A stretch of DNA of 38,688 nt, from contig ONCH01000043.1 in NCBI GenBank assembly GCA_900316265.1, positions 1-38,688 of the forward strand, read 5' to 3'. How positions within the stretch are numbered: position 1 is the first letter of the stretch; each line of letters opens with the position of its first letter. The DNA is from an uncultured Prevotellaceae bacterium (GTDB taxonomy: Bacteria; Bacteroidota; Bacteroidia; Bacteroidales; Bacteroidaceae). Positions 1-32,110 of the stretch are shown here, in pieces. Made by a program: the position numbers and the translations under genes. Below the pieces are notes generated by a model that searched no databases, was not told the DNA's origin, and worked only from the letters and a program-made list of their open reading frames with translations.

Positions 1-109
1 TGAGGGTACGCGACAGTCTTTTGACCTACTGGGAAGCGCTGGCTGGTGAGAGAATGAGCAGGCATTTTTCTCTCTTACCATTTGTCAGTTGCTTCCCAAT
101 TTTTTTTTT
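1..109 (+). repeat. Dispersed structured element, copy 1 (right end only)
   Basis: This is the right-hand end of the dispersed element; the rest lies left of the window. It contains GCGACAG (10-16), the 3' arm of hairpin IV, and the whole of hairpin V, whose outer arms are GGGAAGC (31-37) and GCTTCCC (91-97), followed by a run of ten T (100-109). Hairpin plus T-run looks like an intrinsic terminator reading rightwards. The same sequence recurs at 5117-5215 and, inverted, at 30786-30877. It abuts the 3' end of the DUF6169-like gene. Confidence 0.85.
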
Positions 110-116
110 GGAGATC

Positions 117-1582: not shown

Positions 1583-1968
1583 CAAAATCTTTAATATAAC
1601 AAGGCAGGAATTCAATAAAAATGATGAAGAAGTTATGAGAATAAAGAGATGCGCCCTAAAGACAGAAGTAAGCGATCTATGAAAAGATGAAATTTTGAAA
1701 TAGACCTCCCCACTTCCCCAAATCTCTCGGAAAGGCCGTGCAGAAAGGGGTTGCGAGAGGGGAAGTGTTTGTAAAAGGCTTCCCCAAGACTTCCCCCAGA
1801 CCTCCCCAGGAATGGGAATCCGAAGAGAGGCATCTAGGTATTGAAAAGACGGTGGAACATGGGGAAGTGTTAGGGAAGTGTAGGGGAAGTGTTACGGAAA
1901 GACTTCCCCCGCTGGAAAGCCTAGTGTAAATAGGCATTACAGGCTATAGGTGGGAAGTGTTAGAAATA

Positions 1969-2019
1969 AGCCTAATAGGAATCCTAATTAGCCTAATACA
2001 GCTCTTAGTTAGCCTAATA
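1969..2019 (+). repeat. Three 9-bp iterons at 21-bp spacing (copy A)
   Basis: AGCCTAATA at 1969-1977, 1990-1998 and 2011-2019, identical in all three, with 12-bp spacers of different sequence. 21 bp is two helical turns, so all three face the same side of DNA. Confidence 0.9.
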
Positions 2020-2046
2020 ACGACCCCGTAATAGCTGTACTATGAA

Positions 2047-2102
2047 GATGTAAGAGGTAAGATGTAAGAAGTAATAGATTATAGATGATAGATAATAGAT
2101 AA
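2047..2102 (+). repeat. Heptamer array, 8 units (copy A)
   Basis: Eight exact 7-bp steps: GATGTAA, GAGGTAA, GATGTAA, GAAGTAA, TAGATTA, TAGATGA, TAGATAA, TAGATAA. The equivalent arrays in copies B and C have five and seven units. Confidence 0.85.
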
Positions 2103-2283
2103 TAACGGAAGTAGCCCATAGCGATGGGGCAGGAGAATCGGATTCTCGCTTCACGACAACTATATTTCACATATAGTTTAAAATTTAGTTAATAATGGCG
2201 GCTAGCCCGTGAGGGTAGGTTCGTCAAAGTGAATTAAAATGTAAGTTTTTTATATTTATGCTGTCGCCCGCCCGTTGGAGATC

Positions 2284-3044: not shown

Positions 3045-4490
3045 TTAACCATGAAAAAGATCGTCAACGTCTACCTCATTATTTATACTTTGCCATCCTG
3101 CATTGTGCACCAAACCTGCAGAAGTCACCATTGTCAATTGAAGAGACTTATTCGTTTCGGTTACCTCACGGAATGTATCACGCCGTTCCAGCATTCGTTG
3201 TGCATATTCAGCAGAAATTGCGAAGGGCTTGTTAGTAAACTTCATCTCGCAGAGATTGATGGTCTTATCACCACGGTCAATAATCAGGTCAATCTGGGCA
3301 CCCTTATGTTCTTCACCATCCTTGCCTATATATGGCTTACATGACCATGAGCATACATTTGTCAGGATACCGCTGATGCCCAACTTATGTTTGATTTGAG
3401 GAATATGGTGCAAGCAAACTTGTTCAAAAGCATAGCCCTCCCAACTGGAAATATCCTGTCCCAGATGACTCCAGTAGTGTTCGTCACCTCCATGATAGTT
3501 CTTAACGAAACGGAGATAGAACAAAGAGTAGAGGTCAGTAAGTTGATACATCACATCACGTTCTGACTTTCCAAAAGCATTGTAACTACGGATGAAATCA
3601 CAATTGCACAAATCTTCGAGAACATCTGAGAAATAACCGCTGTCTTCTATTCCTATTTCCTTAATCAGGTCCTGGCGTGTCAAACCTTTCATCTGCTTTG
3701 AAAGTACTTCAACAACTCGCCGATAGAGTCGCGACTCTTTAAAAAGCGACTTATAGAGGAAATTATACTCTTTCTGTAGTGGTGCATTCTCAGAAAAGAA
3801 TAACGCATCTATGTTTTGGGCAACGCTCAAACTTCGACTCATCATATCAAGATAATAAGGCGTTCCACCAACAGCCATATAGGTTTCAATGATATGCTGA
3901 CGTGATAGATCAAAACCTCGTAATTTCAGGAATTCCTCTGTTTCACTGAGATTGAAAGGGCGTAGATAAATTTGCTTTGTTACCCTATTATGTAGTCCGC
4001 CCTTATCGCCAAGCAACTTGTTAGTCATCCAGGTAGTAGCCGAACCACAGACAATAAGTTTGATATTGTCATGTTTCGATGCCCAGCCATTCCAGAACAA
4101 ATCAAAAGCTTTAAGAAAACGTGAGCGGGGAGTATCAAGCCATGGGAGTTCGTCAATGAAGATGTCTATGCGTTCCTTATCAAGCAAAGTCTCCATATAC
4201 TCACGAAGCATAAGGAACGCCTCCATCCAATCCTTGGGAACCTTGTACTTCTTCTTTGCATAGATGCCAAGTTGAGTTGAAAAGTTAGTCAGTTGTTCTT
4301 TACGAGTACCTTCGTAGATACCGGTAGTATAGAAATCATATTTTGCATCAAAGGTCTTATCAATAAGGAATGTTTTACCTATACGTCTACGTCCGTATAT
4401 GGCAACCAATTCTGCCTTGGGGGAACTGATTATTTCCTGCAGGAGTACAAGTTCTTGATGCCTGCCCACCATTATATTCTTATTCTCCAT
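3045..4490 (-). CDS. AAA family ATPase with C-terminal DUF234-like domain
   Basis: A 481-residue protein. Walker A is G-R-R-R-I-G-K-T (about residues 33-40) and Walker B is I-D-I-F-I-D-E-L-P-W (about 110-119), followed by a sensor-like I-V-C-G-S-A-T-T-W-M. The middle (about 270-330) looks like a winged helix (K-G-L-T-R-Q-D-L-I-K-E-I-G). The C-terminal region carries I-D-L-I-I-D-R-x-D-K-x-I-N-L-C-E-M-K-F, a PD-(D/E)xK nuclease-like pattern typical of DUF234 proteins. This family is widespread in Bacteroidetes and archaea with no settled role; links to DNA mobility or defence are inference. It has its own -7 box (TATCTTTG, 4514-4521) and lies between repeat elements. Confidence 0.85.
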   Translation of the reverse strand: MENKNIMVGRHQELVLLQEIISSPKAELVAIYGRRRIGKTFLIDKTFDAKYDFYTTGIYEGTRKEQLTNFSTQLGIYAKKKYKVPKDWMEAFLMLREYMETLLDKERIDIFIDELPWLDTPRSRFLKAFDLFWNGWASKHDNIKLIVCGSATTWMTNKLLGDKGGLHNRVTKQIYLRPFNLSETEEFLKLRGFDLSRQHIIETYMAVGGTPYYLDMMSRSLSVAQNIDALFFSENAPLQKEYNFLYKSLFKESRLYRRVVEVLSKQMKGLTRQDLIKEIGIEDSGYFSDVLEDLCNCDFIRSYNAFGKSERDVMYQLTDLYSLFYLRFVKNYHGGDEHYWSHLGQDISSWEGYAFEQVCLHHIPQIKHKLGISGILTNVCSWSCKPYIGKDGEEHKGAQIDLIIDRGDKTINLCEMKFTNKPFAISAEYAQRMLERRDTFREVTETNKSLQLTMVTSAGLVHNAGWQSINNEVDVDDLFHG

Positions 4491-4709: not shown

Positions 4710-4830
4710 CCACCATTTCTAAAAACAGACAAGCGGCCATATCACCATTGGAAGTTCTTCGACTAGCGAAGCGAGCAAAGCTCGAATTCTCTCTTAAACC
4801 AAGGACAAGTGGGGACGGTTCTCTGCAAGC

Positions 4831-4895
4831 AGAGTGTGGCGTTGCAATCTGTTGATCCACTTTTAGAAATGATACGCATTGCAACGCCACACTCT
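4831..4895. repeat. 18-bp perfect inverted repeat (large hairpin)
   Basis: AGAGTGTGGCGTTGCAAT (4831-4848) is mirrored exactly by ATTGCAACGCCACACTCT (4878-4895), leaving a 29-bp loop. Long perfect arms in otherwise empty sequence suggest a REP-like hairpin, a miniature transposable element or a recombination site. Confidence 0.85.
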
Positions 4896-4915
4896 CAAAG
4901 AGAGAAGTAGCTATT

Positions 4916-5216
4916 GATGTAAGATGTAAGAAGGAAGACGTAAGATGTATAACGCAAGAGTCAGACGGTGACAGAACGAGGTTCGACTCCTCGCTTCACG
5001 ACAACTATATTTCACATATAGTTTTAAAATTTAGTTAATAATGGCGGCTAGCCCGTGAGGGTAGGTTCGTCAACGTGAATTAAAATGTAAGTTTTTTATA
5101 TTTATGCTGTCGCCCGCCCGTGAGGGTACGCGACAGTTTTGACCTACTGGGAAGCGCTGGCTGGTGAGAGTATGAGCAGGCATTTTTCTCTCTTACCATT
5201 TGTCAGTTGCTTCCCA
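4916..5216 (+). repeat. Dispersed structured element, copy B (3' half)
   Basis: The copy starts at the heptamer array: GATGTAA, GATGTAA, GAAGGAA, GACGTAA, GATGTAT (4916-4950). It continues with hairpin I, GTCA-GACGG-TGAC (4960-4972); hairpin II, CGAGG-TTCGACT-CCTCG (4977-4993); hairpin III, AACTATA/TATAGTT (5003-5023); CCC-GTGA-GGG; hairpin IV, CTGTCGC/GCGACAG (5107-5136) enclosing CCC-GTGA-GGG; and hairpin V, GGGAAGC/GCTTCCC (5149-5215), followed by a T-rich run. From 5003 to 5113 it is nearly identical to copy A. The iteron part is missing. It abuts the 3' end of the toxin gene. Confidence 0.85.
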
Positions 5217-5221
5217 GATTT

Positions 5222-5524
5222 TTATTGTTTTTGTGAATCATGCATGTTTTGTGCATGGCATGCATCATGTATAGTGATAGTATCTCCATCAATAGTATAT
5301 GCGTAATACCAATTGTCTGTATTTGCCATATGGTAACCAGCCCATCGCTTAATGGTGGGTTTACGCCTTAATAGCTTTTTCTCTATTTCGTATGCAGAGT
5401 CAATTGCATCGTCAATGTTTTTATGCATTAACTCCCTAGAATAGGTGTGTTTGTATTTTTTTGCTACATTTTGATAGAATGTGGCTATCTTTAACAAACA
5501 CTGTTTCTTAAGAATATATCTCAT
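5222..5524 (-). CDS. Putative toxin of a toxin-antitoxin pair (100 aa)
   Basis: A basic 100-residue protein of the size of ParE/RelE-like toxins, without a recognised catalytic signature. The C-terminus W-Y-Y-A-Y-T-I-D-G-D-T-I-T-I-H-D-A-C-H-A-Q-N-M-H is distinctive and recurs as a remnant at 31464-31550 (Y-Y-A-Y-T-I-E-E-D-T-I-I-V-S-D-A-C-H-A-Q-N-M-H), so a family exists. Its ATG overlaps the stop of the 85-residue gene before it by four bases. Coupling, order (small acidic partner first) and a private promoter argue for a type II toxin-antitoxin pair. The 3' end lies 5 bp from element copy B. Confidence 0.65.
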   Translation of the reverse strand: MRYILKKQCLLKIATFYQNVAKKYKHTYSRELMHKNIDDAIDSAYEIEKKLLRRKPTIKRWAGYHMANTDNWYYAYTIDGDTITIHDACHAQNMHDSQKQ

Positions 5525-30737: not shown

Positions 30738-30785
30738 GAAAACTACAATAATTATTCCCTTTTCCAATTCCTTTCAAAAAAATCT

Positions 30786-31389
30786 GGGAAGCAACTGACA
30801 AATGGTAAGAGAGAAAAATGCCTGCTCATTCTCTCACCAGCCAGCGCTTCCCAGTAGGTCAAAAGACTGTCGCGTTTAATTCACGTTGACGTACCTACCC
30901 TCACGGGCCAGACGCCATTATTAATCAAATTTCAAACTATATAAGAATATAGTTGTCGCGAAGCGAGGACTCGAACCTCTCGTCTTGCCCACCGACTGGG
31001 CGCTTCCGTTATACATCTTCCCTCTTCCTTCTTCCTTCTTACCTCTTACATCTTACATCTTCATAGTACAGCTATTACGGGTCGTTATTAGGCTAACTAG
31101 CGTTCGTATTAGCCTAGCTAGAATCTGTATTAGGCTTATTCCTGACACTTCCCACCTATGGCCTGTAATGCCTATCTACACTAGGCTCTCCAGCGGGGAA
31201 GTCTTCTCGTAACACTTCCCTAACACTTCCCTAGGTTCCATCGTTTTCTCAATACCCAGATACCTCTCTTCGGATTCCCATTCCTGGGAGGTCTGGGGGA
31301 AGTCTTGGGGAAGTCTTTTGCAAACACTTCCCCTCTCGCAATCCCTTTCTACACGGCCTTTCCGAGAGATTTGGGGAAGTGGGGAGGTC
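30786..31389 (-). repeat. Dispersed structured element, copy C (inverted, longest)
   Basis: This is the reverse complement of the layout in copies A and B. Read on the minus strand it has the GGGAAGTGT-rich left part (31389-31140), three iterons at 21-bp spacing (31086-31136), seven heptamers, hairpin I GCCCA-GTCGG-TGGGC, hairpin II with loop TTCGAGT, hairpin III AACTATA/TATAGTT, and hairpin V GGGAAGC/GCTTCCC followed by an A-to-T-rich run. Hairpin IV is mostly missing: about 46 bp present in copy B are deleted between GAATTAAA and GCGACAG. With copy A it forms a long inverted repeat 29 kb apart. Confidence 0.85.
31086..31136 (-). repeat. Three 9-bp iterons at 21-bp spacing (copy C)
   Basis: On the plus strand TATTAGGCT at 31086-31094, TATTAGCCT (one change) at 31107-31115 and TATTAGGCT at 31128-31136. 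Spacing equals that of copy A although the spacers differ. Confidence 0.85.
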
Positions 31390-31463
31390 CTTTTTTGTTT
31401 TACACAAAAAAACGAGGCATCTGTTGGATGTCTCGGCGGATATTATTTTCTAAAAGGGAAATG

Positions 31464-31983: not shown

Positions 31984-31993
31984 CTTTTCTTTT

Positions 31994-32045
31994 GTCGCAA
32001 AGCGAGGAATCGAACCTCTCATCTTGCCGCCAACCGGCTACCTGC
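31994..32045 (-). repeat. Dispersed structured element, copy D (hairpins I and II only)
   Basis: On the minus strand GCCG-GTTGG-CGGC (hairpin I) is followed by AAGATG, then AGAGG-TTCGATT-CCTCG (hairpin II) and CTTTGCGAC. The order equals that of copy C, but the sequence of stem I differs while pairing is kept. The rest of the element is absent. Confidence 0.7.
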
Positions 32046-32110
32046 GTATTTTAAAAATCTGGGACGCAATTGGCGCTCCATATGCCATGCGCCCCAGAAA
32101 ACAACGTTTT

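Follow-up and report, generated by a model that had tools for sequence, protein, structure and literature searches.

The window, i.e. the whole stretch of 38,688 nt analysed here, contains a repeat at four loci, as the initial annotation had proposed: comparison of the window with itself places copies at 1–109, 1698–2275, 4916–5223 and 30778–31394 (inverted). Copy A1 (1–110, forward strand) is truncated at the contig start and consists of the end of hairpin III, hairpin IV (29–99) and a T-run. Copy B (1698–2275, forward) comprises composite 5' repeats and a core, with hairpin III/IV sequence absent past 2275. The first part of copy C (forward) consists of heptamers without the earlier blocks, and copy D (30778–31394, reverse) is a full composite from which hairpin III is mostly absent. 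A fragment reported at 31994–32045 is also present, but its real content is a solo tRNA-like module (31992–32047, reverse) with no hairpins attached, which lies 3' of a small-peptide ORF and of a hairpin that by eye resembles a terminator. Between copies A1 and B lie a DUF6169 gene (117–617, reverse), whose stop is directly past copy A1, and an ORF6N-domain gene (891–1577, reverse). An AAA ATPase gene (ATPase_2/DUF234; 3045–4490, reverse) separates copies B and C, and a small ORF with no Pfam or NCBIfam match (5222–5524, reverse) has its stop directly past copy C.

The long arms of copies B and D are 85–94% complementary, copy D shows 98% complementarity to A1 and shares an 87-nt arm of 99% complementarity with C. 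A search of the host genome (labelled G000; C numbers denote contigs) adds a copy E at C82:1–680, but its 52 terminal bases equal window positions 1–52 (counted), and judging by sequence E and A1 may be a single copy. Copy B has a downstream flank in common with A1 (103 nt, 99%) and an upstream flank in common with E, and its last hairpins are missing; it therefore has the appearance of a local E/A1 duplicate that underwent a deletion. The fixed order of parts described initially is complete in copies B, D and E, but C is without two of the parts and A1 retains the last hairpins only.

The 5' parts of the repeat are separate sequences. In copy B these are a GGGAAGTGT-rich block (1703–1960), TTAGCCTAATA iterons (TTAGCCT; 1966–2030) and an array of GTAAGAN heptamers (2042–2072), all on the forward strand; heptamers also precede copy C (4916–4950, forward). 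Further matches to the GGGAAGTGT block (C53) and to the iterons (C63, C40, C41, C57 and C45) exist elsewhere in the host genome, and tandem arrays of the heptamer are common in the genus. When 617 nt of copy D were used as a query, 101 of 299 genus genomes matched, and outside the host genome nearly all among the matches listed cover the heptamer part only. Among the matches listed, 31 of 35 heptamer arrays have no element within 90 nt, the other four being copies of the element. Because the 5' blocks recur without the core, we regard only the 3' core as the element proper. A single mobile element of 0.6 kb made up of the 5' blocks plus the core would fit the order common to copies B, D and E, but the GGGAAGTGT block and the iterons are absent from copy C and from copies in other genomes, which with the recurrence of the 5' blocks elsewhere makes such a composite very improbable, and we rejected it. 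The unit of 0.3–0.6 kb with a single order thus does not hold; it had joined other repeats to the core and overlooked the tRNA-like structure (hereafter TLS) at the head of the latter. A small insertion-like repeat (AGTGTGGCGTTGCAATC / ACCTAAAGGTAT) was also seen by eye at 4820–4905 of the window, in the iterons of copy E, in the T-loop of a TLS (G106:C18) and inside other repeats.

In copy C the core spans 4952–5217 and consists of a TLS (51–60 nt among copies, no anticodon arm) followed by hairpins. The TLS has an outer stem (CGCAAAG/CTTTGCG), a D-like hairpin and a T-like hairpin, often followed by ACAA, ACGA or ACCA. In 32 inspected TLS the two hairpins are 0–9 nt apart, which leaves no space for an anticodon arm; the D-like stem has a length of at least 4 in 30, GG occurs within the D-like loop in 24, and fewer than 10% of shuffles match the D-like hairpin in 19. 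Three types are distinguished by the T-loop: type 1 (TTCGANT), type 2 (AGCGAAA) and type 3 (mostly ATCGGAT). In the window, matches to a TLS model (R2) identify a type 3 module with a GAGAATCGGATTCTC arm in copy B (2105–2159, forward) and type 1 modules in copies C (4952–5004, forward; also supported by covariation) and D (30953–31009, reverse). Past the TLS there follow, with forward-strand coordinates for copy C, an AT hairpin (I; AACTATAT/ATATAGTT, 5003–5023), an AT-rich stretch, hairpin II with a GUGA loop and UAG (CCC-GUGA-GGG-UAG, 5042–5072), hairpin III, often with a GUGA loop as it is here (5107–5136), and a terminator-like hairpin IV (GGGAAGC/GCTTCCC) with a T-rich stretch (5147–5224). 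Hairpin IV (GGGAAG..CTTCCC) is present in G000, G106 and G083, and its inner CAGGC was also recognized by eye in the latter two.

Several lines of evidence support this fold. The segment 5100–5225 folds with z = −7.0, a value equalled by 0 of 200 shuffles, and it has kin in other genus genomes; the element is thus beyond chance. A covariance model (R1), the check that had been suggested, was built from eight sequences, four of them from the host genome. In an alignment of 44 R1 matches (A4), which was fitted to R1 and includes paralogs and related rows so that events are not independent, 88.0% of cells are paired vs 75.4% after shuffling, 27 of 30 pairs show double changes, and the covariation score is 0.322, compared with no more than 0.104 after sliding. 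An alignment of 32 TLS made with MAFFT (A5), whose copies are likewise related, gives 93.7% paired cells vs 87.3% in shuffles, and 16 double-change cells vs 2.1. Cells with G–U exceed those with A–C (87 vs 25, with one invariant G–U pair omitted; 136:71 in shuffles), which favours the sense strand, and a GTGA loop occurs in 33 of 44 rows. A conserved fold is therefore borne out by covariation in both alignments, and the core represents a genuine family of structured elements with an unusual tRNA-like head. The earlier proposal of a structured RNA with a terminator-like end is upheld for this core, given its covariation, GNRA-type loops, G–U excess and weak similarity to two Bacteroides sRNAs (see below), but not for the whole 0.3–0.6 kb.

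The TLS is distinct from canonical tRNA and tmRNA. ARAGORN calls no tRNA gene in the window, no cloverleaf with an anticodon arm is formed, and at 4977 the tmRNA model RF01850 reaches 9.9 bits (gathering score 84) and the permuted tmRNA model RF04321 9.7 bits (gathering score 47). A closer likeness is provided by the t-elements of plant mitochondria, which are tRNA-like structures proposed to act as processing signals between genes. Type 1 copies have the t-element layout (i.e. acceptor stem, D and T arms and no anticodon arm), while the T-loop deviates in types 2 and 3.

We also compared the hairpins past the TLS with known Bacteroides sRNAs. A cmscan of the whole window reports neither GibS nor BTnc231. 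Scanning 4900–5240 alone (341 bases) yields sense-strand matches to BTnc231 (RF04180; 28.0 bits, E = 6e-4, gathering score 80.4) and GibS (RF04182; 25.9 bits, E = 0.12, gathering score 115), which begin at 5005 and 5007, directly past the 3' end of the TLS; by gathering score the core belongs to neither family. In 15 other modules GibS matches three (21.8–32.8 bits; E = 0.053, 4.2 and 5.5) and none of the other 12, and BTnc231 matches none. A whole-genome search with RF04180 finds seven places, none above the cut-off and none of them the element, and this model also gives matches in 11 of 14 control genomes. The Rfam models of GibS and BTnc231 share GUGA-loop hairpins with the core. GibS, FopS and BTnc231 (PMC11697453, PMC7366714) resemble the element in being multi-copy (FopS) and in having an AT-rich 5' part and a terminator. 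FopS sRNAs are about 65–70 nt long and equipped with canonical promoters, whereas here a tRNA-like module occupies the promoter position and the canonical promoter (TAnnTTTG) is at chance level upstream of the element (see below). RbpB binding and seed pairing with SusC start regions are further marks of FopS; in a search for such pairing, the G083 segment gives p = 0.005 and six others p = 0.06–0.95, with no clear overall signal and in an assay whose positive control failed (p = 0.54). Elsewhere in the host genome, a GibS-like sRNA gene (L309, G000:C63:65450) was recognized by eye, with a TATCTTTG promoter, a terminator and an RF04180 score of 28.2 bits, below the cut-off; it reads TATCTTTG-CAGC-GTGTTTTTCATAGTATTAGAT, by eye near the printed GibS consensus. 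At the corresponding position, i.e. the 3' end of the TLS, the element most commonly reads TCGCTTTG-CGAC, with TCGCTTCA or TCGCTTCG in copies B–E, and this stretch varies together with its stem partner.

Relatives do carry further copies, as would be expected of a dispersed element, but their distribution is patchy. At E ≤ 0.01, R1 finds 26 of 299 genus genomes, in several of which the match is confined to GUGA hairpins; under strict filters R2 matches 13 of 398 genus genomes, with 1–14 copies each, and among 393 genomes of the order it matches the host genome only. A 25-base type 1 pattern occurs in 13 stretches from six MAGs of an 84,980-species collection, all titled Prevotella or Prevotellaceae; two are titled roe deer rumen or reticulum, and the UBA and RUG MAGs presumably come from the rumen as well. 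We rejected the idea that the TLS is a widespread repeat without the hairpin module, since 10 of the 13 R2 genomes also have strong R1 matches and the module is present in G417; G373 has two solo TLS within the stretches seen, and G367 was left out of this check. Carriage by plasmids or phages was likewise rejected, with no plasmid match, 12 phage records at E ≤ 1 of which none spans more than 16% of the query, and no IMG/VR contig with the exact type 1 pattern. Titles and abstract openings among the literature matches listed describe no such element, and a large survey of structured RNAs (PMC8040213) may contain it as an unlabelled earlier motif.

The genomic context of the TLS is oriented on the upstream side. 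We recorded the nearest ORF of at least 150 aa within 1 kb of 63 TLS, some of which are orthologous or duplicated so that the p-values are generous. The upstream ORF is co-directional in 46 cases, opposite in 9 and missing in 8 (46/55, p = 4e-7), and window copies B and C are among the nine exceptions; the downstream ORF shows no bias (25 opposite, 20 same, 18 none; p = 0.55). Neighbouring TLS within 10 kb point in the same direction in 14 of 14 pairs (p = 1e-4, again with some orthologous or duplicated sites). Six TLS lie 0–19 nt ahead of a co-directional ORF. Downstream genes that were tested match, among others, PDDEXK_2 (3), DUF6169 (2) and HTH_3 (2), with weak matches to AAA and to DUF1016 proteins as well. 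The order type 2 TLS, acetyltransferase gene (PF00583), TLS with module is found in both G000:C82 and G417:C125; G142:C42 contains an acetyltransferase-like gene (by eye) and a second TLS, with a type 2 TLS more than 2 kb further upstream. ORFs for small peptides that share a pattern (Y.APE.EVV..GSG-like) recur just 5' of TLS, at 14 of 53 sites; at several sites such ORFs lie 3' of large genes, and the pattern also occurs upstream of the solo module at 31992–32047. The promoter TAnnTTTG is not enriched within 250 nt upstream of the TLS (3 of 40 vs about 4.4 by chance); in G242 the TLS of one copy is preceded by TATCTTTG at a distance of 29 nt.

Location 3' of co-directional genes and terminator-like hairpin ends could also indicate an ordinary interspersed 3'-end repeat, i.e. 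terminator or processing hairpins whose copies arose through duplication and gene conversion and which have no dedicated role in mobility or regulation. The resemblance of copy B to a local duplicate agrees with this, as do comparable GUGA hairpins, likewise accompanied by T-runs, at other places in the genus and on viral contigs. However, a terminator has no need of a branched TLS with covariation, solo TLS occur before gene starts, and the element is present in only 13 of 398 genomes, so that we consider a plain 3'-end repeat unlikely.

We favour instead, at a probability of about 40%, that the element is a promoterless structured RNA at cassette borders whose TLS serves as an RNA-processing signal and whose output is sRNA-like. 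The core would be transcribed together with the co-directional upstream gene from no promoter of its own, and its first 51–60 nt would fold as a tRNA without an anticodon arm. By analogy with plant-mitochondrial t-elements, RNase P and RNase Z (i.e. the 5' and 3' processing enzymes of tRNA) may cut at the TLS; cleavage would free a downstream multi-hairpin RNA that resembles sRNAs of the GibS/BTnc231 type and ends at the last hairpin, while solo TLS just before gene starts might release separate mRNAs in the same way. In favour of this reading are the covarying fold, the D-like hairpin with GG in its loop, the G–U excess, the co-directional upstream genes, the promoter frequency at chance level, the weak BTnc231 and GibS matches that start directly past the TLS, and the six TLS close ahead of co-directional ORFs. 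The likeness to t-elements lies in a tRNA-like structure as a proposed signal between genes; unlike them, the present element is bacterial, multi-copy and joined to sRNA-like hairpins, and its cleavage is a prediction. Some findings count against RNA processing: (i) the D-like hairpin is equalled by at least 10% of shuffles in 13 of 32 TLS, and by more than half in three; (ii) the TTCGANT loop is absent in types 2 and 3; (iii) the outer-stem sequence is conserved beyond the need of a processing signal; and (iv) the Rfam scores stay far under the gathering scores, with most other modules unmatched. Moreover, terminator-like hairpins precede some TLS (by eye; 4 of 53 in a strict scan), so that read-through is an assumption of this reading.

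The cassettes themselves were compared between five G142 loci and twelve G417 loci, all from MAGs. G142:C81 and G417:C72 share 99.7% identity across 1756 nt, from the upstream gene and TLS to just past hairpin III; beyond this point G142 has a DUF6169 gene and G417 an HTH gene and a RAYT-like gene, and similarity resumes at 95.7% from the promoter of the next gene, so that the two loci match on both sides. In G142:C88 and G417:C125 the T-arm, module, gene and right side are 98.6–99.2% identical, and the left side including the D-arm differs. Homology between C70 and C21 stops at hairpin III, C100 and C75 share the same right-hand gene, and C42 of G142 has no clear single partner in G417. One-sided junctions of this kind could reflect misassembly of MAGs or homologous recombination between repeats. 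Two G291 junctions start at ACTCCTCGCTTTGCGAC with the 5' half of the TLS absent; a motif that would mark the right end, on the far side of the cassettes, was rejected, since it was seen in two G291 junctions and is absent in eight loci scanned.

These observations raise the alternative that the TLS and hairpins act as single-stranded DNA structures for a recombinase or HUH transposase, with accessory genes gained and lost there. Integron attC sites and REP/REPIN repeats are structured DNA sites of this sort, the latter with an associated RAYT transposase. The direct orientation of all 14 neighbouring pairs, the breaks in homology at or inside a shared unit (C81/C72, C88/C125 and C70/C21), the G291 junctions and a gene in one G417 cassette that weakly matches the REP-associated tyrosine transposase (21.1 bits against a cut-off of 80) all fit this possibility. 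Against it stand the absence of exchange in the fourth pair (C100/C75), the G–U over A–C asymmetry, which points to RNA, the RAYT-like protein, which occurs only once in the loci retrieved, and the other explanations for one-sided junctions; in addition, a flank search in 60 relatives gave no usable empty site, and no target duplication was found. The integron integrase (TIGR02249) is above its cut-off in none of 24 genomes, of which 12 have an R2 match and 12 have none, and an integron cassette array was rejected on this ground; another recombinase may be involved, as weaker tyrosine-recombinase matches occur in all 24 genomes and all 14 controls. Like attC cassettes, the units are structured, directly oriented and flanked by genes that differ between relatives, but no integron integrase accompanies them and attC core motifs were unseen by eye. 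Like REP/REPIN, ERIC and BOX repeats, they are intergenic, multi-copy, palindromic and without a protein of their own, but they have a branched tRNA-like fold, distinct hairpins and a single weak RAYT-like neighbour. That neighbour (L345, 2246–3346) lies in a cassette adjoining a TLS and has an NF047646 match and no Pfam match. The mobile-element idea of the initial annotation thus gains indirect support from the patchy distribution, the copy number and the different genes beside one TLS–hairpin unit in two close relatives, but no transposase of its own and no empty site were found.

On balance, we rank RNA processing ahead of a DNA recombination site, which is possible but rather improbable, and that in turn ahead of a plain 3'-end repeat; the first two are compatible, and the units that border accessory-gene cassettes may shuffle along with them. 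Should TLS processing take place, regulatory RNAs could do without a promoter and work behind any gene where they land, and tRNA-like punctuation would exist in bacteria. A full bacterial counterpart of mitochondrial tRNA punctuation, in which anticodon-less TLS between exchangeable cassettes are cut by tRNA enzymes to free promoterless sRNAs and mRNAs, is a more doubtful extension. If the TLS is instead a recombination site, some Prevotella would possess a cassette system with no known integrase.

GUGA hairpins are also found in viral sequences. An exact GGTTCGTGAGAATAG scan of viral contigs (IMG/VR loci L152–L271) gives at least 124 distinct sites. Among the matches listed, 100 of 124 have paired arms (control 12) and TTT close by in 75 of these 100; likewise among the matches listed, 12 lie within 200 nt 3' of a tRNA or tmRNA call, and TTT(N)CAT[AT] is upstream in 23 of 118 (controls 0 and 2). 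This viral hairpin resembles a conserved terminator or the end of an sRNA. Phage 'tmRNA' calls near GUGA hairpins were considered as the element and rejected, being permuted tmRNAs instead. ARAGORN reports these in L144 (2391–2754; NC_055902.1, crAss-like cr131_1) and in the IMG/VR loci L191 (3615–3966), L201 (6091–6462) and L215, with tags GNYNVVDYTHVA, GNYNIADYTGLKEAA and GNIKIADYTGLKEAA in L144, L191 and L201, respectively; L144 scores 35.3 bits of 47 with RF04321 and has, by eye, a GUGA hairpin between the two tmRNA halves. Finally, a simple scan of viral contigs and one Prevotella prophage-like region (13 rows, no shuffle control) gave tRNA-like structures that lack an anticodon and have a 7-bp acceptor stem (G–U allowed) in L157 (8268), L180, L221, L237, L143 (1746) and others, some of which are followed by a GUGA hairpin.
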